Shown here in pieces: positions 16,701-61,365 of a stretch of DNA of 64,000 nt. Origin of the DNA: an uncultured Bacteroides sp. (GTDB lineage: Bacteria > Bacteroidota > Bacteroidia > Bacteroidales > Bacteroidaceae). Under the pieces are notes generated by a model. It searched no databases and was not told the DNA's origin. It saw only the letters and a list, made by a program, of their open reading frames with translations. The translations under genes were made by a program, and so were the position numbers. The DNA is taken from assembly GCA_945965395.1 (NCBI GenBank), contig CAMFND010000156.1:1-64000 (forward strand). The letters are read 5' to 3'. The first letter of the stretch is position 1; each line of letters starts with the position of its first letter.

Positions 16701-16780
16701 GCCGTCAGCTCACCAGAAATCGCAAAGAAACTTAATACAGATGCTAGATTAATAAAAAACTTTCCTTTCATTTGCATCAT
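13703..16780 (-). CDS. PL8 chondroitin/hyaluronan lyase (chondroitinase ABC-like), secreted
   Basis: This 1025-residue secreted lyase has a signal peptide ending near ELTAQ. An N-terminal jelly-roll carbohydrate-binding-like region (about 30-200) precedes the alpha-toroid catalytic domain and C-terminal beta-sandwiches. The block [19 protein letters not shown] aligns with the chondroitinase ABC active site, giving H465 and Y472 as the counterparts of H501 and Y508, and SGRHPNGKG follows. The size fits chondroitin sulfate ABC lyases, which cut chondroitin and dermatan sulfates by beta-elimination. No sulfatase, GH88 or Sus genes adjoin it, so it looks like an orphan or an outlying member of a regulon. 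The first Met is uncertain (16780, 16777 or 16771). Confidence 0.88.
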
Positions 16781-35898: not shown

Positions 35899-36999
35899 TC
35901 ATTTTATATTTTTCATATCTCCCGCAAACAAAGTGCGTGAATCATTATAGAAGTTCAGAAAATCATCTGCCGACGGATGCCCCGGATAAGGCGCATAATA
36001 ATGATTTTCTCTTTCACGTGCATTTCTCCATACCAGCACATAACTTATCGGATACTTCTCTATTACCGGCATCAAAGTTTGAGTCCACCAAACCGAATCA
36101 GGAATTGTTTCATACCCCGTTTCTGTCACAGCGATAGGTTTTTGATGTGCTTTTCCCACCTGTGTCATGATGGTAAGTGCATTATCTAAACTCTTCACAT
36201 ACGCCTCTTTGTCAAATTGATATGCATCTACTCCTATCAAGTCGATAATATCATCACCCGGATAACGCTCCAGATACTCCACAGAATCTTTAGGCTCCGT
36301 GCCCGGAGAATAAGCATACAGCAGCTGAGTAGCTCCCTTTTCCTGCATGCGTTCATACGTCATCCGCCAAAGAGCTTTATAATCTTCCGTAGAGCAAAGA
36401 TTTTGTCCCCACCAGAACCAGCTTCCCGTATGCTCATGCCACGGGCGGAAAAGGACTGGTACCTTTACTCCTTCCGGCGTTTGTATTGAGTTCAGATAGT
36501 CGGCCACTTTATCCAGCCAACCCATAAACTTGTCATGATTTACTCCTCCAGGCAGTACAGATTTCACAACTGTTGAATCACTCACATCCCATGAATCTTT
36601 TCCCGTTACCGGATTATCCACGTGCCAGCTGAAAGACGACATTCCTCCGCGTTCATATTGCGCCACAACTTCTTGTCGGATACGGTCCAGCAACACATTA
36701 TCCAAGTTCTTATCCCCATAAATTTCAATACGTCCCAAATCAAAAGACATCATGGCTGGATAATCACCACACACACTTTTCACATCGCTTCGCGCAGAGT
36801 CACCATCCCAACCAATACCGTACACCGGATCATCGTGATGCCCGAACATGAATTGTTTTTGCTGCGGTATAGCTTTCAATTTATCTAACATCGCCTGAGC
36901 TTCCGGGCTATCAGTTTCAACAACCGTTTTATTACCGTTCGCACAAGCAACAGACAAACACATCGTTATTCCTAAAATAAGTTTCAAAGAATTTTTCAT
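35899..36999 (-). CDS. GH26 beta-mannanase/mannobiohydrolase, lipoprotein
   Basis: This GH26 enzyme of 366 residues is counted from the ATG at 36999, which gives a signal peptide with lipobox SVAC; the open frame extends to 37029 without a signal. The acid/base Glu is in RPWHEHTGSWFWWG and the nucleophile Glu in IAVTETGYE. FGHHDDPVYGIGW near residue 60 is another family block. It is compact and resembles the periplasmic mannobiose-releasing GH26 of mannan loci. It has its own operator and TACCTTTG element just upstream, so it probably begins a second transcript. Confidence 0.9.
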   Translation of the reverse strand: MKNSLKLILGITMCLSVACANGNKTVVETDSPEAQAMLDKLKAIPQQKQFMFGHHDDPVYGIGWDGDSARSDVKSVCGDYPAMMSFDLGRIEIYGDKNLDNVLLDRIRQEVVAQYERGGMSSFSWHVDNPVTGKDSWDVSDSTVVKSVLPGGVNHDKFMGWLDKVADYLNSIQTPEGVKVPVLFRPWHEHTGSWFWWGQNLCSTEDYKALWRMTYERMQEKGATQLLYAYSPGTEPKDSVEYLERYPGDDIIDLIGVDAYQFDKEAYVKSLDNALTIMTQVGKAHQKPIAVTETGYETIPDSVWWTQTLMPVIEKYPISYVLVWRNARERENHYYAPYPGHPSADDFLNFYNDSRTLFAGDMKNIK

Positions 37000-37026
37000 A
37001 AGAATCAGCTTTAAAATTACATAGCA

Positions 37027-37070
37027 CAAAGGTAGGTTTTCCGTTCCATCCTTTCTGATACAATTTTAGC
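37027..37070 (-). promoter_or_regulatory. Operator plus -7 element of the GH26-GH130 unit
   Basis: On the minus strand the 25-bp element at 37046-37070 reads GCTAAAA-TT-GTATCA-G and then a diverged half. It is followed by 11 nt and by TACCTTTG (37027-37034). Three other promoters of this locus share the element and the exact spacing. The start codon would be about 20 nt from the transcript start. Confidence 0.65.
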
Positions 37071-37108
37071 AAAAGCAGATAGTAAAATTACTTATTCCCA
37101 AAAATTAG

Positions 37109-37153
37109 AAAACTCTGTATGTGAAAAGTAAAACCTTTCTCATACAGAGTTTT
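37109..37153 (-). terminator. Hairpin between the two GH26 genes
   Basis: Arms AAAACTCTGTATG (37109-37121) and CATACAGAGTTTT (37141-37153) form a perfect 13-bp stem, 13 nt after the stop of the upstream GH26 gene. On the minus strand the stem ends in TTTT and is followed by T-rich sequence. It could terminate or attenuate the SusC-to-GH26 transcript. Confidence 0.65.
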
Positions 37154-37166
37154 ACCCTTCATTACC

Positions 37167-38555
37167 TCATAATTTACTCATCGCTTCCTTCACAGCCTCA
37201 CGATCCAATACATTCTCTGACTGGAATGCAGCTTCCCACCAAGCTTTGTCGGCATGAGGTCTTGCTTCAGTTCCTTCACCCGCATTGCCATACCATGGCA
37301 TAAACCACGACCATGCAGCTCCATTGTTCCACTGTGCTTCTATATTCCCAATGGGCGAATTTTTACTTGCATCATTAGAATCTGCATAATATCCACACTC
37401 CGTCAAGGCAATCATCCGGTCACCATACAATGCGGACAATGCCTTAAATTCTTCCGCACATTCTTCCGCAGTCTTTCCATACAAGTCGCGACCGATAATA
37501 TCCACATATTCGTCACCCGGATACCAGTTTGCATCATCCTTATTTTCAGAAGTCCACACCCAAATCAAATTGTCCAAACCTTGTTCTTTAAAATAGGTGA
37601 ACATCATTTTCCAAAGTGCTTTAAAACTCTCCGCATCTTTTCCCCACCAGAAGAACTGACCGGCCGCTTCGTGTAACGGACGCCACAGCACAGGAACCTT
37701 CGCCTCCTTCAGTTTTTTCAACATGTTGGCAACTTTCTCCAAATCCGCTTTTACAATACTATTCTCCCATGTCCCTTCTTCTGTAGCTTTTTGAGCATTA
37801 AACACAGTTTCCGACAACGTAGCCGTATAATCATTAATGTTACTATCTGTATTTTTAGGAACATTCCAATGCCACATGCAAGAAACGATACCTCCCGCGT
37901 TTGCCCAATTTGTTACCGGAGAAATATCAGAATAATCAATCCAGTTTTCTCCTGAATACCGGATATGCATATAATCAAACGTATTCAAAGCCGGGTAATG
38001 TCCCGTCCATGCATTTACCTGCTCAGCCTCATCCGTATTCCATGCTACATCTGCCATCATACCGGAAATGGTTTTCTTCCCATAGTTTTCTATCAGGAAC
38101 TTATACAATTTTTCTGCTTCCGGTGATGTGGCCATGACTAAATTAGAATGTAAATCCAGCGTACTGAAATTCAAGGAAAATGCAGGAGCAGGCATTTGGT
38201 TAGGGCCCGTCACCAATCCTTCCGGAATAGTTATCGTATAGTCCGTAGCTCTTGAAGGCGCACTCACGGTCAACGTTAATGTATCATTTTTACCATACAC
38301 TATTCCATTACGGATATGCCCGTCGTTACTCACTGTGATTTGAGTCGTATCCGCTGTAGAAAAGAATACATTCTTATCATAAGCTATTTTCAATGTAAAA
38401 TCACCGGCTTTCACGGAGGCTCCTTCTGCCAAGGAGGCATAAACCAGTACCGGAGCATCTACAGCAGGCACATCGTGCTCCACATCGGTATTGCAGGCAA
38501 TCAAAGCCACAGGAGCTGCCAATGCCCACATCCATTTCATTATATTTGTTTTCAT
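37167..38555 (-). CDS. GH26 endo-beta-mannanase with N-terminal Ig-like domain, lipoprotein
   Basis: This protein of about 462 residues starts at the ATG at 38555, which gives the usual 22-nt gap after the upstream gene; 38567 is an alternative. The lipobox is ALIAC. Residues 30-125 form an Ig-like domain, and GH26 follows. The acid/base Glu is in LWRPLHEAAGQFFWWG and the nucleophile Glu in IALTECGYY. GKKTISGMMADVAWNTDEAE is a further family block. The position just after the surface-binding proteins suggests a cell-surface endo-enzyme that makes oligosaccharides for SusC/D import. Confidence 0.9.
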   Translation of the reverse strand: MKTNIMKWMWALAAPVALIACNTDVEHDVPAVDAPVLVYASLAEGASVKAGDFTLKIAYDKNVFFSTADTTQITVSNDGHIRNGIVYGKNDTLTLTVSAPSRATDYTITIPEGLVTGPNQMPAPAFSLNFSTLDLHSNLVMATSPEAEKLYKFLIENYGKKTISGMMADVAWNTDEAEQVNAWTGHYPALNTFDYMHIRYSGENWIDYSDISPVTNWANAGGIVSCMWHWNVPKNTDSNINDYTATLSETVFNAQKATEEGTWENSIVKADLEKVANMLKKLKEAKVPVLWRPLHEAAGQFFWWGKDAESFKALWKMMFTYFKEQGLDNLIWVWTSENKDDANWYPGDEYVDIIGRDLYGKTAEECAEEFKALSALYGDRMIALTECGYYADSNDASKNSPIGNIEAQWNNGAAWSWFMPWYGNAGEGTEARPHADKAWWEAAFQSENVLDREAVKEAMSKL

Positions 38556-38577
38556 ACGTATATTCATTTAGAAATTT

Positions 38578-40296
38578 TTATTTTAAAGTTACTTTGGTCA
38601 TTGTAAAGTTACAACCGGACACTAACAAGCCATCATTATTTTGAGAAAGAACACGAAGATCATCAGCCGTCAATGTAGCAGAAAAACGTGTTGAACCTGC
38701 TTCAAGTCCTTTTATAGGAATTGTGGGTAATTCAGCCCAACCGTTAGCACATCCCAATTTAAGTTGCCAATCGGTTACCGCCTGATTCAGTGTATAGTAG
38801 ATAGTAATTATAGTTCCAGGCTGTACAGAACTCCAATCATAATTTCCCCAACCAAGATCCTGATTACCTTCCCAAGCTGAAGTAGTTACAAAAGAACCTG
38901 TCCAAATAACTTTAGCGAATGAGACGGTATACTTTGCACTCACATCCGAAGATACCAACTCCAAGATAGAGTTTGCCCCGGCCGTTTCCGGCACTTGAAT
39001 CTTCAACTGAATACCATCAAGAGTATGTGTTACTTCCACTCCATTAATTTTAACCCCTGTCAAAAGTTCACCATTCGCTACCTCTACAATCATCTCTTTC
39101 CCTGCTTCAAAATCTTCCTCTAAAGAACTTACAATATGACACGGTTGATTAATTGTAAGATTCAAACCTGATATCTGCTCGCCATTTGCCATCTTAAAAG
39201 TAACGCTGCCACTTTGGGCCGATGCAGGAACAGACACAACCAATTGTTCAGGTGACTGTGAAATGATTTCACCTTCCCCCCCACCGGTAAATATGACTGC
39301 CGATACCAAATCCAGATTCTCACCTAGAATCGTAATCTGCTCTCCCGCATTAATTTCAGTGACTGCACACGAGAAATTACCCGGCTTGGCCATTTCTATA
39401 TTTGCTACAGGTACTTGTACACCAGAAGCTGGAACCGCATAGATAAAACCACTTACTGCATTAGCAGGAAGAGTAAATCGCAAGGTTTTATTCTCAGCAG
39501 AAAATTCAAATTCCACCTTTTCTCCGTTCTCCATCCTGACTTCTTTTACCAAATCAAAGTTTTCACCTGTCACGGTCAGTGTTGCTCCTGGCTTAATATT
39601 GTTATGGTCTGCCACTTCCGCAACAGAAGGCAACACCACCTGCAGTTCTACTTCCGAATAAAGTCTGTTAGGTATTTCTGCCCCGTCAGAAAGAATAATT
39701 TTCCCACTTTGGGCTTCTTCAGGTACACGCACTTGAATCTCATTTCGTGTATGTTTTAAGAATCTGTTCACACTCTCAGTTGTTCCTTCTTCTCCTTCCA
39801 CAACCATTTCATCAGACACAATCACATCCTCTGCAAAAATAACCTGACTCATCAAATTAAGATAGTCTCCTTTGATAGTCAACACATCACCAGGCCTTAC
39901 ACTTTCCGGAGAGAAACTTTCTATCGAAACAGGCTCGGAATAAGTCAACTGAGTCTTGGTAACAATACTTTCTCCATTACGGAGCATCAAAGTCACATAC
40001 CCGGGCAAAGCCGTTTGAGGCACAATCACCCGGATTTCTTCCGCACTGATAAGCTGTATATCCGTAATGGCATCGCAACCGGGAATCAATACTGATGCAA
40101 CCTGATCCAGTCCGCAACCAAGGAACCGCAACTCACCACCACGTAACACAGGGCTCGGTCCAAATACGTTCAGACTGATACCTCCTTTATACTGATTAGT
40201 ATCCAAATCATTTGTATCACAAGCGGTGAATGTCAAAGAGCTCAACAGGACGAGACAAGCCATACACCATGCTGAAAACTTATATATTTTATTCAT
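38578..40296 (-). CDS. Surface glycan-binding lipoprotein with IPT/TIG repeats
   Basis: This 572-residue protein has a signal peptide with lipobox LTFTAC. About four IPT/TIG-like Ig repeats follow, seen as repeated pairs such as PGDVLTIKGDYLNLMSQVIF, PGATLTVTGENFDLVKEV and AGEQITILGENLDLVSAVIF. The last 105 residues (VIWTGSFVTTSAWEGNQDLGWG, IITIYYTLNQ, SGCNFTMTKVTLK) are a distinct C-terminal module, probably the carbohydrate-binding part. This is the SGBP arrangement of Sus-like loci, and the ligand is presumably mannan. Confidence 0.83.
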   Translation of the reverse strand: MNKIYKFSAWCMACLVLLSSLTFTACDTNDLDTNQYKGGISLNVFGPSPVLRGGELRFLGCGLDQVASVLIPGCDAITDIQLISAEEIRVIVPQTALPGYVTLMLRNGESIVTKTQLTYSEPVSIESFSPESVRPGDVLTIKGDYLNLMSQVIFAEDVIVSDEMVVEGEEGTTESVNRFLKHTRNEIQVRVPEEAQSGKIILSDGAEIPNRLYSEVELQVVLPSVAEVADHNNIKPGATLTVTGENFDLVKEVRMENGEKVEFEFSAENKTLRFTLPANAVSGFIYAVPASGVQVPVANIEMAKPGNFSCAVTEINAGEQITILGENLDLVSAVIFTGGGEGEIISQSPEQLVVSVPASAQSGSVTFKMANGEQISGLNLTINQPCHIVSSLEEDFEAGKEMIVEVANGELLTGVKINGVEVTHTLDGIQLKIQVPETAGANSILELVSSDVSAKYTVSFAKVIWTGSFVTTSAWEGNQDLGWGNYDWSSVQPGTIITIYYTLNQAVTDWQLKLGCANGWAELPTIPIKGLEAGSTRFSATLTADDLRVLSQNNDGLLVSGCNFTMTKVTLK

Positions 40297-40315
40297 ACGT
40301 CTAAGTCTTTAAATG

Positions 40316-41653
40316 TTATTCAACTGGAACCACCCGAATATTGTCCATGCAAATAATCGGTTCACATTCTTTACCGTCAACTCCACCTCCACGCAGGAAG
40401 ATGCTTAAACCAGCAAATCTATCCTGAGTAAACTCGGTATCACTGGCTAGTCCAGAAACTAACTTATTAAATTCTGACATTTTAAGTGTAACTGTAACCC
40501 ACTGATTGTTTGTATCGTATGAGCCAGTTTCTTCCCAAGGAACCCAAACGCCACGAGGAGCCTTTCCTTCTTCATGACTTTCATCATCATTCCAGATGTA
40601 ATCCTGTGTCTGGTTACTCATAGAAACTTCATCCAATGAGGTAAATCGAATTTGCATGCCTTCAGCCATCCATGGATTAGAAGTCGGAACATATACTTCA
40701 AATTTCAATGCCAATTCCTCAATCTTATAATCTTCCAGCATTTTCTTAAACTGGGGTAAATTATAAAGAGGTACACAACCTTCTGTTGCATTCGGATCAG
40801 GCCAATACATCATCAGATACTCTCCTGGAGTTTGCCATTGTCCACCAGAAAGGGTGGCAGGTCCCATCACCATATACTTTCCATCCACAGGAGGAACAGA
40901 AGTAAGAATCTGCCCTTTCTTTTCATTGTCACCATTCCAAGAATTTCCTGCGACCAGGGCACCTTCATATTTGCCATCCCAGTCAAACAAAATATTGCGT
41001 GTGTCTTTATACTGGAAAACAGATTGTCCGGTTCCGTAAATTGACTTCACACGAATATTTCCTTGCACCGCTCCCTCGGGTACTATAAATTTGATAGCCG
41101 TTTTCGTGATACTTGTAATCTGCTCCCCTTCCACAGTAATATCTCCAGGCATGGAAATTGTCAAAGGCACATTGGGATCGTCTACAAAATAATCACCATA
41201 CAATACGGCTTCACTTCCGGCCGGAGCATATTCACAACTCATAGAACTAACCACCGGTGCAGGAACCATCACACTAAAATCAAAATCCACTTTTGCTCCA
41301 GACTTAGTAACCATATAGATTTTATTGGTCACTTCTTCCGGTATGTTCTTAGGAATGTCCACCAAAATGGTATGGTCGGTCATATAACTTGTATTCAAGG
41401 TAGCTTTCTGATCATTAAAATAAAGTTCATAGATACTGCGCAAGTTATCACCTACCAGACAAACCGTATTTCCCAGATAGGCTCCTACAAGCAATGAGTC
41501 TGCTTCTTCCGGCAATGGAGAGCGCACATATTTCAAAGTAGGAACCCCATCTGCAATTTCATATTTATCCGGCTGATCCTCACAGGCAGTCATAAGACAA
41601 CCCATCACAGCCAATGCTGCCACAAAGAACCAATTGATATATCTTGTTTTCAT
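40316..41653 (-). CDS. Surface glycan-binding lipoprotein (SGBP-B type)
   Basis: This lipoprotein of about 445 residues is counted from the ATG at 41653, which leaves 20 nt after susD; 41665 is an alternative start. The lipobox is LMTAC. Two IPT-like domains (SIYELYFNDQKATLNTSYMT; SSMSCEYAPAGSEAVLYGDYF) precede a C-terminal beta-sandwich with NILFDWDGKYEG, FEVYVPTSNPWMAEGMQI and ICMDNIRVVPVE. This matches the SGBP-B family first described in xyloglucan loci. It should bind mannan at the cell surface. Confidence 0.83.
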   Translation of the reverse strand: MKTRYINWFFVAALAVMGCLMTACEDQPDKYEIADGVPTLKYVRSPLPEEADSLLVGAYLGNTVCLVGDNLRSIYELYFNDQKATLNTSYMTDHTILVDIPKNIPEEVTNKIYMVTKSGAKVDFDFSVMVPAPVVSSMSCEYAPAGSEAVLYGDYFVDDPNVPLTISMPGDITVEGEQITSITKTAIKFIVPEGAVQGNIRVKSIYGTGQSVFQYKDTRNILFDWDGKYEGALVAGNSWNGDNEKKGQILTSVPPVDGKYMVMGPATLSGGQWQTPGEYLMMYWPDPNATEGCVPLYNLPQFKKMLEDYKIEELALKFEVYVPTSNPWMAEGMQIRFTSLDEVSMSNQTQDYIWNDDESHEEGKAPRGVWVPWEETGSYDTNNQWVTVTLKMSEFNKLVSGLASDTEFTQDRFAGLSIFLRGGGVDGKECEPIICMDNIRVVPVE

Positions 41654-41673
41654 ATTATGCATCATTTAAAAGA

Positions 41674-43428
41674 TTAATAACTATACTCCGTACGCACATC
41701 CACATGTACGGGGTCTTCCATCAAATTAGGATTAAATACCACATCTTCAGAAGGAAACGGCAATGTAAAACTTTCCTTTGTCACATTAGGTACCTTTGGA
41801 TTATTGGTATAATGCTGGTCTGAAGTAGCATTCCAAGTCGTCTGTCCGGATTCATAATAGGATTTATACAACGTATTCAAGTTGTCGTACACATCACGCT
41901 TCTGGTTTACAAGTTCATTAATCGCTCTTGATGAATCATAATAAGACAAACGTACAAAGTCATACCAACGGTCTCCTTCACAAGCCAGTTCCAGACGACG
42001 TTCCTTCCATACATCTTCCCAAGAAACAGAAGCAGGCAATTTGTATTCACTTACCGCACGATGACGTACTTGCCAGAATACATCTCTTGCCTTTTCATCC
42101 GTGGTTGAACCCTGATTTCCAATTACAGCTTCTACATAAATCAGATATACATCAGCCAAACGCAATAAATGAGTACTCAAGCTACTGGACATACTTGCAG
42201 CCGACACACCCAAACCTTTCATGTGGTCATTTGCATTGCCATACAAATGCTTCACCTCATTGGCTCCTGTCGGACTCTGCAATTCTCCGGGACCACCTTT
42301 ACCATAACCATCCTTATCATAGATGAAGTTGATATAATCGAAGCCTCCCTTATCCTGCCAGAAATATTCATATTTATCGCCCGCCATCATCATGGTTGCT
42401 TTACGACGAGTATCAATAACCGATTTGTCGCGGTCTTTCGGATTCTGGTCCGGAGTAACTCCAAAGGCCAGCTGCAAATCAATGGAAGGGCCATTATAAC
42501 CACCCCAGTTATCTCCAAATTCATCAAATCCCACCATAGCCAAGTCTGACTGTAACGTATTCTGCGCCGTGTACTGACCGCTTGCCGCATCCCAACGCCA
42601 TCCAATCAGACTTTCTTCACAGTTATTATTCTGCAAACGGAATATATCTGCATAGTTTTCCATCAGTTTGCGGCCAGAGTTATCAATCACATCTTCTGCC
42701 AGTTCTTTGGCTTTATTCAAGGCAGCCTCATCACGCATACCGTTTTGTCCTACGCCCGACTTTGTCAAATAAACCTTTGCCAGCAATCCTTCAGCTCCAT
42801 AATAATCGATGCGTCCGGCCTCACCTTCCATGATATTTCCATCCTCATCTTTAAACAACTCCATTGCTTTCTCCAATGTCATGACAATATATTCATAGAC
42901 ATCAGCCAGCATGACCTTCTTCTTGTCATTGTAAGTTCCATCTGCCAGTTCTTTGGAATTATCGTGTACGATAGGTACAGCCCCGAAAGTACGTGCCAGA
43001 TAGAAGTAAGCCATAGCCTTCCAAGACAAACATTCAGCCATACACTGTCTTCTGACATTCTCAGAACAGTTAGCTGTTTGCAGAGTTTTGTATACCGTAT
43101 TACAATAAGCAATGACAGACCACAAAGAATAAGACATATTGACCAAATCCTGGTCCGTTCCATTCACTGTAAAATCCAGATAAGGACTTTTCCCCCAATA
43201 ATAATTACCAGACATCACTTCACCCACTTTAAAGAAACCACGCTGGAAATCATACCATGGAGAGTTATACAAGAAATTTACTCCCTGCACACACTGGGTA
43301 TCATTCTGGTAGAAATTAGATTGATTATAATTGTCTTCAGTCGGTCGATCCAGAAAATCATCACAAGAAGTTGCTCCCATACCAAAGACCGCAGCCAAAG
43401 CCACATATTTAATATTCTTGATTTTCAT
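41674..43428 (-). CDS. SusD/RagB-family nutrient-binding outer-membrane lipoprotein
   Basis: This 584-residue lipoprotein starts with a signal peptide and lipobox GATSC followed by DDFLDRPTEDNYNQSNFY. The tetratricopeptide-like core includes RRQCMAECLSWKAMAYFYLARTFG split over two helices, and the C-terminal WEDVWKERRLELACEGDRWYDFVR is a SusD landmark. It caps the SusC channel and presents oligosaccharides to it. It lies 20 nt after susC. In this locus the ligand should be beta-mannan oligosaccharides. Confidence 0.93.
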   Translation of the reverse strand: MKIKNIKYVALAAVFGMGATSCDDFLDRPTEDNYNQSNFYQNDTQCVQGVNFLYNSPWYDFQRGFFKVGEVMSGNYYWGKSPYLDFTVNGTDQDLVNMSYSLWSVIAYCNTVYKTLQTANCSENVRRQCMAECLSWKAMAYFYLARTFGAVPIVHDNSKELADGTYNDKKKVMLADVYEYIVMTLEKAMELFKDEDGNIMEGEAGRIDYYGAEGLLAKVYLTKSGVGQNGMRDEAALNKAKELAEDVIDNSGRKLMENYADIFRLQNNNCEESLIGWRWDAASGQYTAQNTLQSDLAMVGFDEFGDNWGGYNGPSIDLQLAFGVTPDQNPKDRDKSVIDTRRKATMMMAGDKYEYFWQDKGGFDYINFIYDKDGYGKGGPGELQSPTGANEVKHLYGNANDHMKGLGVSAASMSSSLSTHLLRLADVYLIYVEAVIGNQGSTTDEKARDVFWQVRHRAVSEYKLPASVSWEDVWKERRLELACEGDRWYDFVRLSYYDSSRAINELVNQKRDVYDNLNTLYKSYYESGQTTWNATSDQHYTNNPKVPNVTKESFTLPFPSEDVVFNPNLMEDPVHVDVRTEYSY

Positions 43429-43448
43429 ATACAGTCAAATTTAACAGG

Positions 43449-46400
43449 TTAGAAAGAAACATTCAGTCCGAATGAATAGACAGTAGGCGACGGATAACGT
43501 CCGTAATCCAATCCGTACACATTAGTACTTTGCGTACTGGCTCCGATTTCAGGATCGTAACCATCATATCCTGTAATTGTCAATAAGTTCTGAATATTCG
43601 CATAAAGCCGCAAGTTATTAATGCCGAACTTCTTGATTAATTTACTCGGGAAAGTATAACCCAGTGTAATATTCTTCAAACGGATGTAAGAACCATCTTC
43701 CACATAACGGTCGCTGATACGGTCATTGTCGTTCGGGTCCTGAATAGAAGCACGAGGAATAACAGCTTCCGGATTAGAGACACGCACATTAGTCACATCG
43801 TCATACCAATACTGGCCGGAAGGATAAACTTTGTCCGGATCAATCGGCTCCAGCCGGGCACGACCCGTTACCGAGTTCAACTGATTTTCCCATGCAGAAT
43901 TCATGTGAGTAAGCTGCATACCCAAATAATTCATTACCTTATTTCCATAAGAACCATTAATAAAAATCGACAAGTCAAAATCCTTGTAACGGAATGTATT
44001 GGTCCATCCAAAAGTAAATTTCGGCATCGGAGAGCCCAAATTCGTCTTATCATATTCATTAATGACTCCATCAGGTTTTCCATCCGGACCACTAATATCC
44101 TTATATTTGATGTCACCTACCCAAACTGTATTCTTTCGGTTGAACACTCCGTTTGACGGATACTGCTCCGGTTTCGGAGATTTCTGCAGGTCTTCATAAT
44201 CCTGATAAACTCCATCACATACATAACCATAGAAATTATACAATGACTCACCTACATTGGACACACTAACTACATCATTCCATTGTCCATAGCCAACAAT
44301 TTGTGCATTGGCCGTTCCACTCAATGCCTTTAATTTATTCTTATTGAATGAAATCTGGAAATCAGAATCCCACTGGAACTTTCCAATTAACGGATGCGTG
44401 TTGAGTGAAATTTCCACACCGGCATTCTCAATACTACCATAGTTACCATAAGGAGGATCCAAACGGCTGCTGGTATTCCCCTGAGTTCCCATATAAGAAG
44501 GTAACTGCAAAGCCATCAGCATGTCATTTGAAACCTTTTTATACCAGTCTACAACCAAATTAATACGGTCCTGAATGAATCCCAAATCCAATCCTACATT
44601 CCACTGTTCCTGAGATTCCCACTTGATGCTGGTATTCGGAATATTTTTCGGACGATATCCCGTTCCGAGACTTGAACTCATTTTCACGATAGAAGTTCCC
44701 CACAAATATCCTCCAATATTTGCATTACCGGTCTGTCCCCAGCCTAAACGCAATTTACCATTACTAATTACACCAGACAAAGGTTTAAAGAATTCTTCAT
44801 TTGAAAAACGCCACGAACCAGCAAGTGCATGGAAACCTGCCCAACGGTTATCCGGGCCAAAGTTTGAAGAGCCATCATAACGGTAAGTGTAAGTCCCGTA
44901 ATAACGGTTATCGTAATTATAAGTCAGACGAGTGAAGAACGATGCCATAGCCGAACTGCCAAATCCTGAACCAATTACCGGAGTAGCAGTACCTAGAGCA
45001 GGATTATGCACCGCATCAGAAGGCAAACTGGTATTGGTCACGCTGATATTATCATAATTAGACGCCCAACATTCCTGTCCCAGCATGGCCGTAAAATTAT
45101 GCTTGTCTATCATGCCACTATACGTAACATAGTTCTTGAGCTGCCAGAATGTACTGCTGTTCTTCTGAATACTACTATAGTTACTGTCACGCGTCCAACT
45201 ACCAAAGTCCACCATAGGTTTATAACGTTCACCTCTGGAAGCGCTAATATCATAGCCCAGTTCCGCATGCCACACCAGATTCTTTATTGGGGTAACCTCA
45301 AAGAAGATGTTACCTGTCAACTTCTGGCGGTTCAGCAGTACCTGGTCCATCATAGCCATTGCAATCGGGTTCGGATTCGTATAACCTTCACGTACAATGG
45401 TCGCATAATTTCCGTCAATATCATAAATAGGAATATCAGGGACAGTTTTCAATGAATAATTAATAATACCCTGTTCACCATCTGCCAGTTTCAAATCTTC
45501 GTCCGTAGATGAATAGGTAGCGCTCAATCCCAGCTTCAACCAGCTTTTCAACTGAGAGTCCAGATTGACACGAAAAGAATAACGGTTAAAGTTTGACCCT
45601 ATCAACGTACCATCCTGGTCCATATAAGAAGCAGAAACATAATATTTAATCTTTTCCGTACCTCCTTCAGCAGAAACCTGATGCTGGTGTTGCAATGCAG
45701 TCTGGAAAACCGCATCCTGCCAGTTCGTTCCTTTACCCAAGATGGAAGGATCAGCATAATATCCGTTCACATCCAATTCACCCACTTGCACAAATTCATT
45801 GTAATAATTAGCAAATTCACGCAAGTTCATCATATCCAGCCGTTTGGTCTGTCTCTGTACAGCCAGCATGCCATCATACGTAAATTTGGCTTCACCAGCC
45901 TTACCTCGTTTAGTCGTAATCAATATCACTCCATTTGCTCCTTGCGCTCCATAAATCGCGGTTGCCGAAGCATCCTTCAAAATTTCCATTGAGACAATAT
46001 CGGCAGGGTTAATGGTAGAAAGCGGAGAAATGGTAGATACGGAACCATTACCCAACGCATCTCCCAGACCGAAATCTGCACCCGAAGCACCTCCTCCCTG
46101 TACAATTACTCCGTCAATCACATATAGAGGTTCCGCATTGGAATTAATGGTAGCTTGTCCACGCACACGGATAGAAGACGAAGAACCCGGAGCTCCAGAA
46201 GTACTTACGGCAGAAACACCTGCTGCACGTCCCTGTAAAGACTGGTCCAGATTGGTAATTACAGAACCTTTTATCGCATCTTCGCCCACTGATACAGAAG
46301 CACCAGACAAATCACTTTTCTTCATGGTTCCATAACCCACTACCACAACTTCATCCAAGGTCTCGGAATCTTCTTTCAATACAATATGTAAAGATGTCTG

Positions 46401-46712
46401 GTTTGTGACCTTTATGGTTTGTGTTACATAACCTATATAAGAAATCTCCAGTGTAGCCCCAGATGAAACGCTTAGCACAAAATTACCATCAATATCCGTA
46501 ATTACCCCATTAGTTGTTCCTTTTTCCAGAACATTCGCTCCAATCACAGTTTCACCGGCAGCATCAACTACTTTTCCTTTGATCTGCCTTTTCGCTTGCT
46601 GCAACACTTCCGATGCGTGAAGTTCAGAAGCCTGCACCTGATACACATTTCCCATAGAAGCCATGGCAAATGCACCAGCAACCAGCGCACATCTTTTTAC
46701 ATTTTTATTCAT
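43449..46712 (-). CDS. SusC/RagA-family TonB-dependent transporter (mannan locus)
   Basis: This 1087-residue outer-membrane barrel has a signal peptide and then a carboxypeptidase-D regulatory-like domain (IKGKVVDAAGETVIGANVLEKGTTNGV, here noted in two pieces). The SusC signature ETLDEVVVVGYGT follows near residue 116 and includes the TonB-interacting segment. The plug domain begins about residue 125, and the protein ends in the barrel-terminal YSFGLNVSF. It imports glycans with SusD. Two operator-promoter units lie upstream, at 46837-46880 and 47094-47137. Confidence 0.94.
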   Translation of the reverse strand: MNKNVKRCALVAGAFAMASMGNVYQVQASELHASEVLQQAKRQIKGKVVDAAGETVIGANVLEKGTTNGVITDIDGNFVLSVSSGATLEISYIGYVTQTIKVTNQTSLHIVLKEDSETLDEVVVVGYGTMKKSDLSGASVSVGEDAIKGSVITNLDQSLQGRAAGVSAVSTSGAPGSSSSIRVRGQATINSNAEPLYVIDGVIVQGGGASGADFGLGDALGNGSVSTISPLSTINPADIVSMEILKDASATAIYGAQGANGVILITTKRGKAGEAKFTYDGMLAVQRQTKRLDMMNLREFANYYNEFVQVGELDVNGYYADPSILGKGTNWQDAVFQTALQHQHQVSAEGGTEKIKYYVSASYMDQDGTLIGSNFNRYSFRVNLDSQLKSWLKLGLSATYSSTDEDLKLADGEQGIINYSLKTVPDIPIYDIDGNYATIVREGYTNPNPIAMAMMDQVLLNRQKLTGNIFFEVTPIKNLVWHAELGYDISASRGERYKPMVDFGSWTRDSNYSSIQKNSSTFWQLKNYVTYSGMIDKHNFTAMLGQECWASNYDNISVTNTSLPSDAVHNPALGTATPVIGSGFGSSAMASFFTRLTYNYDNRYYGTYTYRYDGSSNFGPDNRWAGFHALAGSWRFSNEEFFKPLSGVISNGKLRLGWGQTGNANIGGYLWGTSIVKMSSSLGTGYRPKNIPNTSIKWESQEQWNVGLDLGFIQDRINLVVDWYKKVSNDMLMALQLPSYMGTQGNTSSRLDPPYGNYGSIENAGVEISLNTHPLIGKFQWDSDFQISFNKNKLKALSGTANAQIVGYGQWNDVVSVSNVGESLYNFYGYVCDGVYQDYEDLQKSPKPEQYPSNGVFNRKNTVWVGDIKYKDISGPDGKPDGVINEYDKTNLGSPMPKFTFGWTNTFRYKDFDLSIFINGSYGNKVMNYLGMQLTHMNSAWENQLNSVTGRARLEPIDPDKVYPSGQYWYDDVTNVRVSNPEAVIPRASIQDPNDNDRISDRYVEDGSYIRLKNITLGYTFPSKLIKKFGINNLRLYANIQNLLTITGYDGYDPEIGASTQSTNVYGLDYGRYPSPTVYSFGLNVSF

Positions 46713-46836
46713 AGTGTATCACTTGTATGATTAATAATTCTTCATCAATAGATATATGCGAAAAGCCAACAAACGGAATCCTCTCTACATAATATCAGAT
46801 TAAAAGTCGCTTTATATTACAAATTTCTTACAACCA

Positions 46837-46880
46837 CAAAGGTAGAAACAATCGTATTGTAATAATGATACAATTTTATC
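46837..46880 (-). promoter_or_regulatory. Proximal susC operator-promoter
   Basis: On the minus strand the 25-bp element (46856-46880) reads GATAAAA-TT-GTATCA-T and continues into a weaker half. Eleven nt later comes TACCTTTG (46837-46844), a Bacteroidetes -7 element. The leader to susC would be about 120 nt. Confidence 0.65.
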
Positions 46881-47093
46881 TATCACTAGTATAAAACAAA
46901 TCACCGACTGTTCCTTCTCTTCCTTCTACCCTGCACAATCATCAACCGGATTCTGTCCCTTCATGAAATGTTTATATTCAGTTCCTATTATATCATTCTT
47001 CATTCGCTTATTGCAAACAAAATATTCACACAACTCCGAGGTAATAGAAAAGAAATTCGTTTCTGCATACCTATTAGATTTATTTCAACGCTG

Positions 47094-47137
47094 CAAAATT
47101 AGCCGATAACCACTGATAAAAATGATATAATTTTATC
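47094..47137 (-). promoter_or_regulatory. Distal susC operator-promoter
   Basis: On the minus strand the element (47113-47137) has perfect inverted arms GATAAAA and TTTTATC around a 9-nt centre that contains ATATCA. Eleven nt later comes TAATTTTG (47094-47101). The leader would be about 375 nt and would run through the proximal promoter. Confidence 0.65.
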
Positions 47138-47182
47138 ATATACTGATCGAAGTTTATTTATTCCCCACCTAAACAGAAAAAT

Positions 47183-47218
47183 GGCCCTCTTTTCTCAATA
47201 CCAGATAAAAAGAGGGCC
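47183..47218 (-). terminator. Intrinsic terminator after the araC-type gene
   Basis: Arms GGCCCTCTTTT (47183-47193) and AAAAGAGGGCC (47208-47218) form a perfect stem 23 nt beyond the stop. On the minus strand it is followed by a T-rich stretch. Confidence 0.85.
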
Positions 47219-47241
47219 TTCCTTAATTATATATTATACTA

Positions 47242-48132
47242 TTAAATAATGGTACGTTTCTTTCTGTAATTATCTCTGAACTCTTTGGGGGAACATCCTT
47301 TCTTCTTTTTAAATATGCGATTGAAATTAGATAAATTATTGAAGCCACACTCATAACAGATTTCAGCGACCGCCATCGTTGAATCAACAAGCAGACGCGT
47401 CGCATACCCCAACCGCAAATCAATAATGTAATCTGACAAATTCTTACCTGTACGCAACTTAAAGAAACGGCTGAAAGATACTTCGGTCATACCTACCATA
47501 TCAGCTAGCTGCTTCAGCTTTATTTCCTCTTGATAATGTTTTCCTATATAATCTTGTACTCTTTGTACACGCCTACTGTCTGAATGTACCTCTATTTTGG
47601 CAAACGAAGAACTTGAAAGAGTACGCGCCTGGTCAGTAAACAAAGAAAGTTCATAAAGCAAGGTCAGGAAATGTACCACGGCATAAAACCCTTTCATCTC
47701 AGGAAGCTTGTCAATCAATGAGTATACTTTCATCATGGCATCCATGGGAAAGCAAAGCCCATACTGTGCTTTATCCAGCATTTTACGAATCATATCAAAC
47801 TGATTCGTTTCCACCAGCCCGTTCATAAAAGAAGGAACAAACTGAATAGTTATTTCCCGGATATTTTCTGAGGTACACGTATTTTGTTCCCACACATGTT
47901 CCAAATCAGGACTCGTAATTAATACCAGATCATAATCACCTATCACTTCAGCCGAATCCCCGACTACACGACGCACTCCAGGTGCATGCTCCACAAAATT
48001 CAGTTCAAACTCACGGTGGCAATGCATGGGATATGTAAACTCTTTCTTATGCCGATCGGCAATGTAAAAGCAATCTTTATCTGAAAGAGGAGTTATTTCT
48101 CGTATAAAATTCTCATTCAACAACTTTTCCAT
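47242..48132 (-). CDS. AraC-family transcriptional regulator of the mannan locus
   Basis: This 296-residue regulator is counted from the ATG at 48132 (MEKLLNENFIREITPL). The frame stays open to 48300, but that part is hydrophobic and crosses the promoter. An N-terminal cupin-like sensor contains YPMHCHREFELNFVEHAPG and LITSPDLEHVWEQ. The C-terminal AraC DNA-binding domain (about 190-296) has LKQLADMVGMTEVSFSRFF and VAEICYECGFNNLSNFNRIF. No membrane or two-component domain is present. It lies between susC and the GH36 gene and is the natural candidate to bind the 25-bp element shared by their promoters. Confidence 0.92.
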   Translation of the reverse strand: MEKLLNENFIREITPLSDKDCFYIADRHKKEFTYPMHCHREFELNFVEHAPGVRRVVGDSAEVIGDYDLVLITSPDLEHVWEQNTCTSENIREITIQFVPSFMNGLVETNQFDMIRKMLDKAQYGLCFPMDAMMKVYSLIDKLPEMKGFYAVVHFLTLLYELSLFTDQARTLSSSSFAKIEVHSDSRRVQRVQDYIGKHYQEEIKLKQLADMVGMTEVSFSRFFKLRTGKNLSDYIIDLRLGYATRLLVDSTMAVAEICYECGFNNLSNFNRIFKKKKGCSPKEFRDNYRKKRTII

Positions 48133-48224
48133 AGCAGTACGTTTAAAAAGGAACAAAATAAGGCCATAATTAAAAGTTATTATTCTCAGAAAAAGCGTCT
48201 CATTCTCTATTTTTCTGTTTCCCA

Positions 48225-48277
48225 CAAAAATAAGATAAAAACATATCAGTTTTATCACAAAACAACACCTATTTTTG
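48225..48277 (+). promoter_or_regulatory. Operator between araC and the GH36 gene, with opposed -7 elements
   Basis: The 25-bp element at 48234-48258 has inverted arms GATAAAA and TTTTATC around a 9-nt centre with ATATCA. Eleven nt downstream is TATTTTTG (48270-48277) for the GH36 gene. On the other strand TATTTTTG (48225-48232) lies one base from the operator and could serve araC. Binding could thus activate GH36 and repress araC. Confidence 0.65.
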
Positions 48278-48324: not shown

Positions 48325-50532
48325 ATGAGTGCAAAAAGCAAACTTTATCTTTTAGCAGGCCTTTCTTTCTTGGCCGGAAATGCAATGGCACAGCACATCT
48401 GTATTTCTACCCCTAACACATCGCTCGTACTGAATGCTCCCAATGGAGGTGAGCTAAAGTATCTTTACTATGGAAGCAAACTGAGTGAAACAGACTTGCA
48501 ACACATCAATGAAGCATCTAATTGTAACCATACGGCTTACCCCGTATATGGAATGAATTGTCCGGGAGAAGCTGCTCTTTCTATAAAACACGCCGACGGT
48601 AACATGTCTACACAAATGGAGGTGGTAAGTGTCAGCACTAATCAGGAGAAGCAGTCTACATTAACGACTGTCCACCTGAAAGACAAAGTATATCCGTTCT
48701 ATGTCGACGTGCACTACAAAGCATATCAGGATGTAGACATGATAGAAACTTGGACCGAGATAAGCCACACAGAAAAGAAACCGGTATATCTGAGCCAGTT
48801 CTCTTCTGCCTACTTACCCATTCGCAGAGGAAATGTATGGCTTTCACACCTCTCTGGTTCATGGGCAAACGAAGGACAACTGACACAAGAACCGCTACAG
48901 CCGGGAATGACCGTGATTAAAAACAAGGATGGGGTACGTAATTCACATACCTCACATGCAGAAGTGATGTTCTCACTCGATGGAAAACCACAGGAAAATA
49001 CAGGAAGAGTCATTGGAGCCGCCCTTTGCTACACAGGCAACTACAAACTGAAAATTGATACAGACGACAGCGATTATCATCAGTTCTATGCCGGAATCAA
49101 CGAAGAAAACTCTTCATACATGCTTTCTAAAAAAGAAGTATTCCGCACGCCTGCCGTAGCCCTGACTTACAGCGACAAAGGGCTGAGCGGCGCAAGCCGT
49201 AATTTCCACAAATGGGGACGTACTTACAAACTGGCTCATGGCAATGTGGTCCGTGATATTTTATTGAACAGCTGGGAAGGTGTGTATTTCGACATCAACC
49301 AGAAAGGAATGGACCAGATGATGAGCGACATTGCCTCAATGGGAGGCGAGCTTTTCGTGATGGACGACGGATGGTTTGGCGACAAATATCCACGTAAGAA
49401 CGACAGCTCTTCGCTGGGTGATTGGGTAACAGACAAAAACAAGCTTCCGGAAGGTATTGAAGGATTGATAAGGGATGCAAAGAAACATGGCATCAAGTTT
49501 GGCATCTGGATAGAACCGGAAATGGCAAACACAATCAGCGAATTATATGAAAAACATCCTGAATGGATACTGAAAGCTCCTCAGCGTGATCCGGTGCTTG
49601 GACGTGGAGGTACTCAGGTCGTACTCGACTTGGCAAATCCGGAGGTACAGGATTTCGTTTTCAAGGTTGTTGACGACTTGATGACACAGTACCCCGACAT
49701 CGCTTACATTAAATGGGATGCCAACATGGCTATTATGAATCACGGCTCCAACTACCTGACAGCTGATAAACAAAGCCACATGTACATAGAATATCACAAA
49801 GGCTTTGAGAGTGTATGTCAGCGTATCCGTGCCAAATATCCGGACTTAGTGATTCAGGCTTGTGCCAGTGGAGGCGGTCGTGCCAACTATGGCTATCTTC
49901 CTTACTTTGATGAGTTTTGGGTGAGCGACAACACGGATGCACTGCAACGCATCTACATGCAATGGGGAACATCTTACTTCTTCCCTGCCATTGCCATGGC
50001 TTCGCACATCAGTGCGGCTCCCAACCACCAGACCTTCCGCACCGTTCCACTTAAATACCGCATCGATGTGGCTATGAGCGGACGATTAGGAATGGAAATC
50101 CAGCCTAAAAACATGACCGATGAAGAAAAAGAACTGTGCCGCAAAGCAATAGCCGATTACAAGAAAATCCGTCCGGTAGTTCAGTTAGGAGATATTTATC
50201 GCCTTGTTTCTCCATACGACCATCTGGGAGTAGCCTCCTTAATGTATACCAGTCCGGAAAAAGACAAGGCTGTATTCTACTGGTGGAAGACAGAACATTT
50301 TGTCAATCAACACTTACCGCGTGTAACAATGGCCGGTCTTCATCCCGACAAGACTTACCGTATCACAGAGTTGAACCGGATTGACAATAAGCCGTTGCCC
50401 TTTGAAGGGAAAGTCTACAGTGGAGCATTCCTGATGGAAAACGGATTGGAAATTCCTTATACTCATCAGGTAGACTATCATAAATTGAATGATTATGCCA
50501 GCCGGGTATTGTATCTGGAAGAAGTAAAATAA
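48325..50532 (+). CDS. GH36 alpha-galactosidase, secreted
   Basis: This 735-residue enzyme has a Sec signal peptide (residues 1-22, GNAMA-QH). An N-terminal beta-supersandwich precedes the barrel. The nucleophile is D465 in YIKWDAN, and the acid/base is D535 in SDNTD. FVMDDGWFG and FGIWIEPEM are further GH36 landmarks. It removes alpha-1,6-galactose from galactomannan, probably in the periplasm. It is divergent from the AraC regulator and has the shared operator upstream. Confidence 0.93.
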   Translation: MSAKSKLYLLAGLSFLAGNAMAQHICISTPNTSLVLNAPNGGELKYLYYGSKLSETDLQHINEASNCNHTAYPVYGMNCPGEAALSIKHADGNMSTQMEVVSVSTNQEKQSTLTTVHLKDKVYPFYVDVHYKAYQDVDMIETWTEISHTEKKPVYLSQFSSAYLPIRRGNVWLSHLSGSWANEGQLTQEPLQPGMTVIKNKDGVRNSHTSHAEVMFSLDGKPQENTGRVIGAALCYTGNYKLKIDTDDSDYHQFYAGINEENSSYMLSKKEVFRTPAVALTYSDKGLSGASRNFHKWGRTYKLAHGNVVRDILLNSWEGVYFDINQKGMDQMMSDIASMGGELFVMDDGWFGDKYPRKNDSSSLGDWVTDKNKLPEGIEGLIRDAKKHGIKFGIWIEPEMANTISELYEKHPEWILKAPQRDPVLGRGGTQVVLDLANPEVQDFVFKVVDDLMTQYPDIAYIKWDANMAIMNHGSNYLTADKQSHMYIEYHKGFESVCQRIRAKYPDLVIQACASGGGRANYGYLPYFDEFWVSDNTDALQRIYMQWGTSYFFPAIAMASHISAAPNHQTFRTVPLKYRIDVAMSGRLGMEIQPKNMTDEEKELCRKAIADYKKIRPVVQLGDIYRLVSPYDHLGVASLMYTSPEKDKAVFYWWKTEHFVNQHLPRVTMAGLHPDKTYRITELNRIDNKPLPFEGKVYSGAFLMENGLEIPYTHQVDYHKLNDYASRVLYLEEVK

Positions 50533-50614: not shown

Positions 50615-52039
50615 TTATTCCCAATTATCCGTACGGAACGGATACAAGGGCAATTCACGCAAGTTGGCCACATTACCCGGCTGAAAGTCACGGAAACAAT
50701 AGCGTACGGCAACAGGCTGTGCTACCTTGTCGCAAGTCACCTTTATCTGCGAATTATTGAAAACTTCTGCCTTTGCCGGATAGAATACCTTGTCGTTTCC
50801 AGCTACTTCAAAACCTTCCATACCCGACAAACGGTTAAATCCTTCTTCTGCATGGTCAAAGGATAAAATAGCCACACCACCTTTCACTTCCATCGACTTA
50901 TAAACAGGTCCGCATGCCTCTATGCCAGGCACATGGTAAGTCTTACTCAAAGCCATATAAGCAAGACGCTTTCCTACGTCTGTTTTATTCTTGGGATGCA
51001 CATTCTTAATTTCATAAGGTTCTACCAGGTCATTGGTCGAAATCATACCACTGTTCGAAATGATAGACTGCGCCTTGAACTGTGCTTCACGAAGGTATGC
51101 ACACCCGGTAGTTTCCGTAGAGTTAAACGGCGCAATCTCCACATAATAAAAAGGCAATTCACCCAGCCCCCATTCCTTACGCCAAAGTTCCACCATTGTC
51201 TTCAGGCGTTCAGCATACGTTTTGTGTTTCCCCACATTGGATTCTCCCTGATACCACAGAAAACCTTTGATGGTATAATTCTGTAGTGGCTTCAACATGC
51301 CGTTATACATCAATGTCGGACTCAGGTAATGCCACCAGTCGTGTCCGTCCTCCTTGCGAATGTCTTTCTTCAAGTCAATATCTGGATACTGGGACACGAT
51401 TTCACGAGGCAGCCATCCTTCCACCATAGAACCACCCCAACTACAGTTGATGATTCCTATTGGAATATCCAGTACCTGATTCATCATCATGGCAAAATGA
51501 AAAGCCGTCGCACTAAAAGCCGGTGCATTTTCCGGATTGCTTACCTTCCAGCTCCCTTTACACGAATCCACCGGTTTTACCTGACCGTTTTTCTCCACGG
51601 TAGCCACACGAATACCTTTCCATTTCGATGAAGTAGCAATGGCTTCATTAGCCCCTGCTATCGGACAGTTTACGAATCCTCGGAGAGGCATCTCCATATT
51701 CGACTGCCCTGAGCAGAACCAGACTTCGCCTACCAGGACATTGTTCAGTTTCACTTCCTCTCCGTCGGAAATGGAAATCGTATAAGCCTGATAACTGGCT
51801 GTGGGAGTCTGAATTTTAGCCACCCACTTTCCTTCCGCATCGGCGGTTACTTTATACACTTCCCGGTTCCACGACGGACGGATAATCACTTCGGCATTCG
51901 CATTTGCCTTTCCCCACAGACAAGCTTCAGCCTGCTGTTGCAATACCATATTGTCACTCACAATGTCGGGCAATGTAATCTTGCCCCATGCTCCAGCCTG
52001 CACCATCAGCAGACAGGCACTCACAATCCATTTTTTCAT
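50615..52039 (-). CDS. SGNH-type carbohydrate acetylesterase (sialate O-acetylesterase-like)
   Basis: This 474-residue secreted esterase has a signal peptide of about 19 residues. The SGNH nucleophile is S113 in the GQSNM motif (111-115). GIINCSWGGSMVEGW carries the glycine/oxyanion block, GFLWYQGESNVGKH the Asn block, and KNVHPKNKTDVGKRLA the catalytic His region. The family name refers to sialic acid, but in a mannan locus the likely substrate is acetylated mannan. It is transcribed toward GH36, and a weaker copy of the shared operator lies upstream. Confidence 0.85.
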   Translation of the reverse strand: MKKWIVSACLLMVQAGAWGKITLPDIVSDNMVLQQQAEACLWGKANANAEVIIRPSWNREVYKVTADAEGKWVAKIQTPTASYQAYTISISDGEEVKLNNVLVGEVWFCSGQSNMEMPLRGFVNCPIAGANEAIATSSKWKGIRVATVEKNGQVKPVDSCKGSWKVSNPENAPAFSATAFHFAMMMNQVLDIPIGIINCSWGGSMVEGWLPREIVSQYPDIDLKKDIRKEDGHDWWHYLSPTLMYNGMLKPLQNYTIKGFLWYQGESNVGKHKTYAERLKTMVELWRKEWGLGELPFYYVEIAPFNSTETTGCAYLREAQFKAQSIISNSGMISTNDLVEPYEIKNVHPKNKTDVGKRLAYMALSKTYHVPGIEACGPVYKSMEVKGGVAILSFDHAEEGFNRLSGMEGFEVAGNDKVFYPAKAEVFNNSQIKVTCDKVAQPVAVRYCFRDFQPGNVANLRELPLYPFRTDNWE

Positions 52040-52148: not shown

Positions 52149-52193
52149 CAAAGATAGTACATCTATCTTCATTACAATTAATACTTTTTTATC
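52149..52193 (-). promoter_or_regulatory. Possible esterase promoter with weak shared operator
   Basis: On the minus strand GATAAAA-AA-GTATTA (from 52193 downward) resembles the locus operator, and TATCTTTG lies at 52149-52156. The spacing is 12 nt rather than 11 and the element is less well conserved, so the assignment is tentative. Confidence 0.4.
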
Positions 52194-57220: not shown

Positions 57221-57255
57221 TTAAGAATTGCAATAACCATTAATCAGAAAGCACC

Positions 57256-58323: not shown

Positions 58324-58353
58324 TAAAAACTAACCTTTTAAAAATCTAAGTTT

Positions 58354-61344: not shown

Positions 61345-61365
61345 TTCATCAATACAGATAAAATT

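Follow-up and report, generated by a model that had tools for sequence, protein, structure and literature searches.

We analysed 64,000 nucleotides of DNA from an uncultured Bacteroides sp. (contig CAMFND010000156.1, positions 1 to 64,000 of the forward strand; hereafter the window), which carries a beta-mannan utilisation locus, and in particular a short element that recurs upstream of several genes of this locus and that an earlier reading of the letters alone (the original prediction) had described as a 25-bp operator with inverted arms, placed 11 nt before the -7 element of four promoters and bound by the AraC-family regulator of the locus. The locus encodes SusC, SusD, a surface glycan-binding protein (SGBP), a TIG protein, two GH26 proteins, GH130, a fimbrillin-like protein, a major facilitator superfamily (MFS) transporter, an N-acetylglucosamine (GlcNAc) 2-epimerase-family protein, GH36 and a SASA-family esterase, with an araC-family gene between susC and GH36. 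The product of this gene (47242..48135, minus strand), a 297-aa regulator with the Pfam domains HTH_18 and HTH_AraC and a predicted barrel domain followed by two helix-turn-helix (HTH) motifs, is our candidate binder. Putative targets are susC, the first gene of the susCD operon (43449..46712, minus strand; Pfam plug and CarbopepD_reg_2 domains), the second GH26 gene (35899..37002, minus strand; Pfam GH26), the GH36 gene (48325..50532, plus strand; Pfam melibiase and GH36 domains) and the SASA-family esterase gene (50615..52039, minus strand; Pfam SASA). No hybrid two-component system (HTCS) regulator was found among the open reading frames (ORFs) of at least 690 aa in the window, these being SusC and TonB receptors and enzymes.

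Upon re-reading, the four sites lay exactly where the original prediction had placed them, with cores starting at 46880, 47137 and 37070 on the minus strand and at 48234 on the plus strand, and in 4/4 a TAnnTTTG element follows exactly 36 nt from the core start (25 + 11). Read along the coding strand they are GATAAAATTATATCAT (47137), GATAAAATTGTATCAT (46880), GCTAAAATTGTATCAG (37070) and GATAAAAACATATCAG (48234, plus strand). Two of them precede susC: promoter P1 has the 15-bp core GATAAAATTATATCA, hereafter the proximal half-site (47123..47137, minus strand; half-site score 20.1), and the -7 element TAATTTTG (47094..47101, minus strand; offset 36), and promoter P2 has GATAAAATTGTATCA (46866..46880, minus strand; score 21.0) and TACCTTTG (46837..46844, minus strand; offset 36). 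The promoter of the second GH26 gene combines GCTAAAATTGTATCA (37056..37070, minus strand; score 16.9) with the same -7 element TACCTTTG (37027..37034, minus strand; offset 36), and that of GH36 combines GATAAAAACATATCA (48234..48248, plus strand; score 16.1) with TATTTTTG (48270..48277, plus strand; offset 36). Scanning with a weight matrix revealed a fifth site, overlooked in the original prediction, upstream of the SASA-family esterase gene, where GATAAAAAAGTATTA (52179..52193, minus strand; score 19.8) stands at spacing 37 from the -7 element TATCTTTG (52149..52156, minus strand). The core in the window reads GATAAAAnnRTATYA, once with GCTAAAA, and at all five sites the -7 element is TAnnTTTG of the primary-sigma (sigma-ABfr) type, with no TTTG -33 box found within 38 nt upstream of it. 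The window contains 63 TAnnTTTG sequences on both strands together, and the four exact 36-nt coincidences are therefore not due to chance.

To define the element we compared the best 80 named loci around relatives of the AraC protein (62-100% identical; 1.48 Mb), chosen from the 407 among 416 candidate stretches that encode such a relative; what they conserve is a half-site of 15 bp, GATAAAATARTATYA. These loci contain 18 exact copies of the 15-bp core GATAAAANNRTATCA, 14 of them with a TAnnTTTG within 120 nt of the core start, and in 14/14 of these the offset is 36. Among 35 cores with one mismatch, TAnnTTTG lies at 36 in 12, at 37 in three and at 57 in five, with single cases at 33, 34, 56 and 109; since 57 equals 36 + 21, the last cluster points to a second copy of the core. 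A weight matrix trained on the offset-36 promoters singled out 71 of 1377 TAnnTTTG sites (score of at least 12; the training sites are among those scored), or 63 after removal of near-duplicates. When the matrix of the proximal copy alone was slid along these 63 non-redundant promoters, it peaked at lag 21 (mean -5.9; 32% above 2); at the other lags the means ran from -10 to -37 and no more than 10% of the promoters exceeded 2. The second copy is thus a direct repeat exactly 21 bp upstream of the first (logo: GATAAAATARTATYA proximal, AAATAGTATTA distal); many relatives have a strong one, the species of the window a weak one or none. Such tandem arrangements with a period of 21 bp are well known from AraC proteins (araI1-I2 of E. 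coli AraC, RhaS/RhaR and MelR), and the half-site in direct repeat at 21 bp seen here has the layout of AraC-family operators.

The 25-bp length and the GATAAAA/TTTTATC arms of the original prediction did not hold up in this comparison, in which TTTTATC occurs within 21 nt after the core in 2/63 promoters and the right half is unconserved. A 25-bp palindromic operator was rejected, as the reverse-complement half-site at the required offset of 28 averages -26.3 and exceeds 2 in 0/63; the sole inverted signal is a weak dyad formed by GATA..TATC within the core (offset 34; mean -6.7; 6% above 2). The proposal that the element occupies the place of the -33 box is borne out: the core overlaps the position expected for this box, and a -33 TTTG is mostly missing, standing at its best position in 7/63 related promoters and forming the end of the proximal half-site there.

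We then turned to the specificity of the pattern in the genome to which the window belongs (3.72 Mb, 161 contigs, 94% complete). The exact core pattern GMTAAAANNRTATCAK has seven matches, four of them in the window, and the remaining three (L001-L003; L and G numbers are our handles for compared loci and genomes) lie inside ORFs and have no TAnnTTTG at the 36-nt distance. With at most one mismatch the core matched 21 times against 10 for the reversed pattern. Core and promoter pattern together matched 14 places at up to three mismatches (reversed control: 7) and six at up to two, four of these being the sites originally predicted. The original prediction had asked whether matrix hits would fall at random spacing and whether related loci would lack the element. 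In 2.25 Mb of loci, some overlapping and many chosen for the AraC protein or the motif, matches of score at least 16 were far from random in spacing (155 at offset 36, 7 at 37 and 0 at 35), with 0 matches of that score in the reversed loci, and 39/80 related loci carry a site at the exact spacing (promoter score of at least 8); neither outcome counts against the original prediction. Paired half-sites without the -7 box, at three mismatches, were matched as often in the reversed control.

The sites follow the mannan genes. AraC loci with GH26, GH130 or epimerase genes in their flanks have a site in 20/20 cases, a count that takes in three loci added by hand, namely L084 and L101, with strong operators and a shifted -7 element, and L073, with an operator at spacing 37. 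Of the remaining 60 AraC loci 22 have a site; the 38 site-less ones, which include Bacteroides, Prevotella and Barnesiella loci, have no GH26, GH130 or epimerase genes in the flanks compared.

The operator also occurs where the regulator gene lies elsewhere, as seen in six genomes chosen for clustered pattern matches (B. fragilis Q1F2, G126, B. luti, B. faecis, B. congonensis and GM023). The AraC gene of B. fragilis Q1F2 lies near 213 kb and the sites lie at 248-271 kb, preceding a GH3 gene, SusC, a GH2-like/GH3 stretch after a GH26 gene and a GH26-GH130-MFS-epimerase cluster; one of the five has its TAnnTTTG at 42 and not 36. G126 has the same layout with AraC unlinked, and in B. luti, also with AraC unlinked, one of two sites precedes SusC. 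The sites of B. faecis, B. congonensis and GM023 cluster on a contig other than that of AraC, in another locus (L118-L124), which carries SusC and GH130 paralogs and in B. faecis also DUF2264, phosphodiesterase and symporter genes. By comparison, no operator stands in the B. congonensis GH26 locus (L160), where an HTCS gene (L160:3587-7579) is divergent from susC. Nine further genomes with unlinked AraC were judged by the position of the GH130 gene and not by the motif: four (G137, G139, G140 and G141) have an exact-spacing site at the mannan genes, G135 has none, the contig of G138 ends before susC, and G123, G136 and G142, described below, have only weak sites or sites without the -7 element at 36. 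A GH130 at least 73% identical to that of the window was present in 12/12 AraC-bearing genomes tested. Finally, 20 stretches were taken around strict matches away from, or without, an AraC ortholog; 17 have a site of score at least 16 at offset 36 and three (L132, L142 and L147) weaker ones only. Genes adjoining the sites include those for GH130, GH26 and the esterase, and operator-like promoters also precede unlinked genes for GH31 (L137:5644), GH94 (L138:2818), GH3 (L139:4727 and L145:2240) and GH43 (L146:2740); as targets GH3 and GH94 would suit glucomannan.

Next, we related the strict promoter pattern (at most one mismatch) to the presence of an AraC ortholog (at least 65% identical) in 61 genomes of the genus. 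The pattern had 64 matches in 30/61 genomes, against 2 for the reversed control, and it was present in 23/23 genomes with the ortholog and in 7/38 without it (Fisher 5e-11, not corrected for relatedness). Among 188 genomes of the family outside the genus, it was found in 14/50 with an AraC homolog (cut-off E 1e-80) and in 2/138 without one; by identity of the homolog the counts were 9/9 at 70% or more, 2/25 at 60-69% and 3/16 below 60%. Judged from these sequences, the strict motif fades with divergence of the regulator. As a separate observation, L129, L167 and L168 have a variant tandem element beside AraC homologs of 44-48% identity, GATAARATWTCAT then GCTTGRATTNTATTWG, located before GH130 in L168.

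The C-terminal part of the AraC protein, with Pfam HTH_18 and HTH_AraC and two HTH motifs, matches the DNA-binding domain of E. coli AraC (2k9s) in sequence and fold. Pfam gave no match for the N-terminal part, for which a barrel-like ligand-binding domain rests on an AlphaFold prediction (mean predicted local distance difference test score 79.9) that matches the regulatory domain of RhaR (5u93; target TM 0.65). The locus AraC, named as binder in the original prediction, remains the best candidate, given its co-occurrence with the motif in the genus and the presence of the motif at mannan genes where AraC is unlinked. We consider that the 15-bp core lying 36 nt (once 37) upstream of the -7 element at five promoters of the window is probably the proximal half-site for direct activation by this protein, with a probability of roughly 0.75. 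An AraC dimer would bind both copies, here one strong and one weak or unspecific distal copy; the bound protein would reach RNA polymerase or its sigma factor in the -33 region, taking the place of the missing -33 contact and activating the promoter. With lower confidence, the ligand may be a cytoplasmic product of mannan breakdown, for example the beta-1,4-mannosyl disaccharide of the GH26, epimerase and GH130 pathway; a cytoplasmic mannan disaccharide is our guess from gene content, which GH130 in 12/12 genomes fits and does not prove.

Several observations weigh against direct activation by the locus AraC. The distal copy, as scored at the five sites of the window, is marginal at susC P1 (47144..47158, minus strand, 21 bp upstream; degenerate, score 0.4, the best in the window), weak at susC P2 (-12.7) and at the second GH26 gene (-7.9) and absent at GH36 (-28.8) and the esterase gene (-28.5). 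Then there are the genus genomes that have the motif and lack the ortholog. Three of the six genomes with an AraC homolog of only 44-48% identity carry the strict motif; in two of them (G005 and G046) the site precedes GH130, and in the third (G002) it precedes a DUF6057 gene. Four more (G015, G018, G022 and G045) have kept the motif with neither ortholog nor 44-48% homolog; the site precedes an esterase gene in G018, G022 and G045 (L133:1943, L134:2208 and L132:4945), and the promoter sequence of G015 is nearly the same as that of G018. No close AraC DNA-binding domain was found in these four genomes, the best being 41-44% identical with different second recognition helices. In GM023 an HTCS gene adjoins the motif cluster. 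Among AraC-bearing genomes, B. xylanisolvens XB1A (G123) has three sites that resemble the operator but show no TAnnTTTG at 36, two Prevotella (G136 and G142) have weak sites only, and one Barnesiella has no site; the DNA-binding domains of the distant AraC-bearing genomes without a proper site are similar nonetheless. We also observed that in the weak Prevotella sites the distal half looks better than the proximal one.

Part of this evidence would be explained if another AraC-type binder, and not the locus AraC, used the element. HTCS operators in Bacteroides are likewise predicted to be direct repeats about 21 bp apart (PMC3878776), which together with the HTCS beside the cluster in GM023 and the four genus genomes with motif and no ortholog speaks for such a protein. 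However, the window has no HTCS among its ORFs of at least 690 aa, the motif is missing from L160, a GH26 locus with an HTCS of its own, and in tblastn searches with the AraC protein the 34-40 kb surrounding the motif clusters in B. fragilis, G126, B. faecis and B. congonensis yielded no second domain of the AraC type. Combined with the strict co-occurrence of motif and AraC ortholog in the genus, this makes another binder unlikely.

If the locus AraC is the binder, it could still act mainly as a repressor that is released by inducer. A protein bound over the -33 position could block RNA polymerase, and the GH36 site abuts a minus-strand TATTTTTG facing araC (48225-48232), an arrangement that would suit repression of araC itself. 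Against this, the rigid 36-nt spacing and the missing -33 box fit an activator better and sugar regulators of the AraC family are mostly activators, so that we regard repression as the principal mode of action as quite improbable. Recognition of the core as an upstream promoter element by an alternative sigma factor, to which the near-fixed distance from core to -7 box might point, is very hard to reconcile with the repeat of a 15-bp core 21 bp upstream, which is unlike sigma elements, with the sites at spacing 37 and with a -7 box of the usual primary-sigma form, TAnnTTTG (PMC7366714). Chance similarity of A+T-rich intergenic sequence, for which one might cite the A+T-rich core, the loose own-genome count of 14 against 7 and half-site pairs no commoner than the control, was rejected on the strength of the 14/14 offsets at 36, the 64 matches against 2 in the genus and the 0 high-scoring matches in reversed loci.

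The doubled operator before susC may have a history of its own. The closest named AraC, 100% identical, is that of Phocaeicola plebeius DSM 17135. P. faecicola and P. coprocola have, between AraC and susC, a gene for a glycosidase-like protein of 435 aa, and a promoter of the P1 type stands before it (coordinates of the gene in relatives: L036:11131-12438, L035:12348-13655 and L141:4004-5317). The window and P. plebeius have kept a P1-type promoter and the 435-aa gene is gone, and the window retains a 22-codon stub (47000..47068, minus strand) that resembles the start of the gene and is possibly a remnant of it, once driven by P1. The doubled operator may be a deletion scar, the match to the stub being short. 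Elsewhere in the window are two possible host-glycan loci, one with a PL8-family lyase gene (13703-16780, minus strand) and one with a second SusC/SusD pair beside alpha-N-acetylglucosaminidase and HGSNAT-like genes (55052-63012, plus strand).

Taken more broadly, it is about an even bet that a single AraC protein of the one-component type controls a portable mannan regulon throughout Bacteroidales, in which the same tandem operator would stand before genes for uptake, mannanase, phosphorylase, galactosidase and esterase and before unlinked GH3, GH94 and GH31 genes, the araC gene would move within the chromosome, and homologous mannan loci would be divided between this cytoplasmic regulator and the membrane HTCS switch of B. 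ovatus. Predicted regulators of Bacteroidota polysaccharide loci have so far been mainly HTCS and SusR-like proteins, according to PMC3878776. We found no description of the operator of an AraC-type mannan regulator in the open PubMed Central literature, the supplementary data of PMC3878776, which could list such a regulon, being outside this scope and absence from print not being established. What appears to be new is the operator and regulon predicted for a one-component regulator of mannan genes, its retention in trans and the difference from a mannan locus under HTCS control. The result offers an operator and a spacing rule that can be tested for a one-component regulator of Bacteroidota polysaccharide loci, in which the operator connects the regulator to its targets even when they are far apart and predicts regulon members outside the mannan locus. 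A half-site 36 nt before a -7 element with no -33 box is also a rule that would help to build inducible promoters for gut commensals.

The system resembles the AraC/XylS sugar activators in its double-HTH regulator, in the direct repeat of half-sites 21 bp apart among the relatives and in the position of the proximal half-site next to or over the -35/-33 region, and differs from them in operator sequence, in the Bacteroidota promoter and in the distal copy, which is weak or lost in the species of the window. It shares with the HTCS operators of Bacteroides polysaccharide utilisation loci (PULs) the arrangement predicted for their AraC-type domains by Ravcheev et al. (2013; PMC3878776), that is, direct repeats of ~15-bp sites ~21 bp apart at PUL promoters. 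Unlike an HTCS, the present candidate is a 297-aa one-component protein with no membrane sensor kinase, and it would often act at genes far from its own. The beta-mannan PUL of B. ovatus (bacova_02087-97), as described in PMC5217682, has in common with the present locus the GH26 mannanases, a GH36 galactosidase, a phosphorylase, a symporter, an isomerase and SusC/D proteins. It differs in its regulator, an HTCS reported to bind manno-oligosaccharides, and in having an HTCS the L160 locus of B. congonensis resembles that of B. ovatus (PMC5217682). On this comparison, homologous mannan loci seem to be controlled through two different signalling designs.

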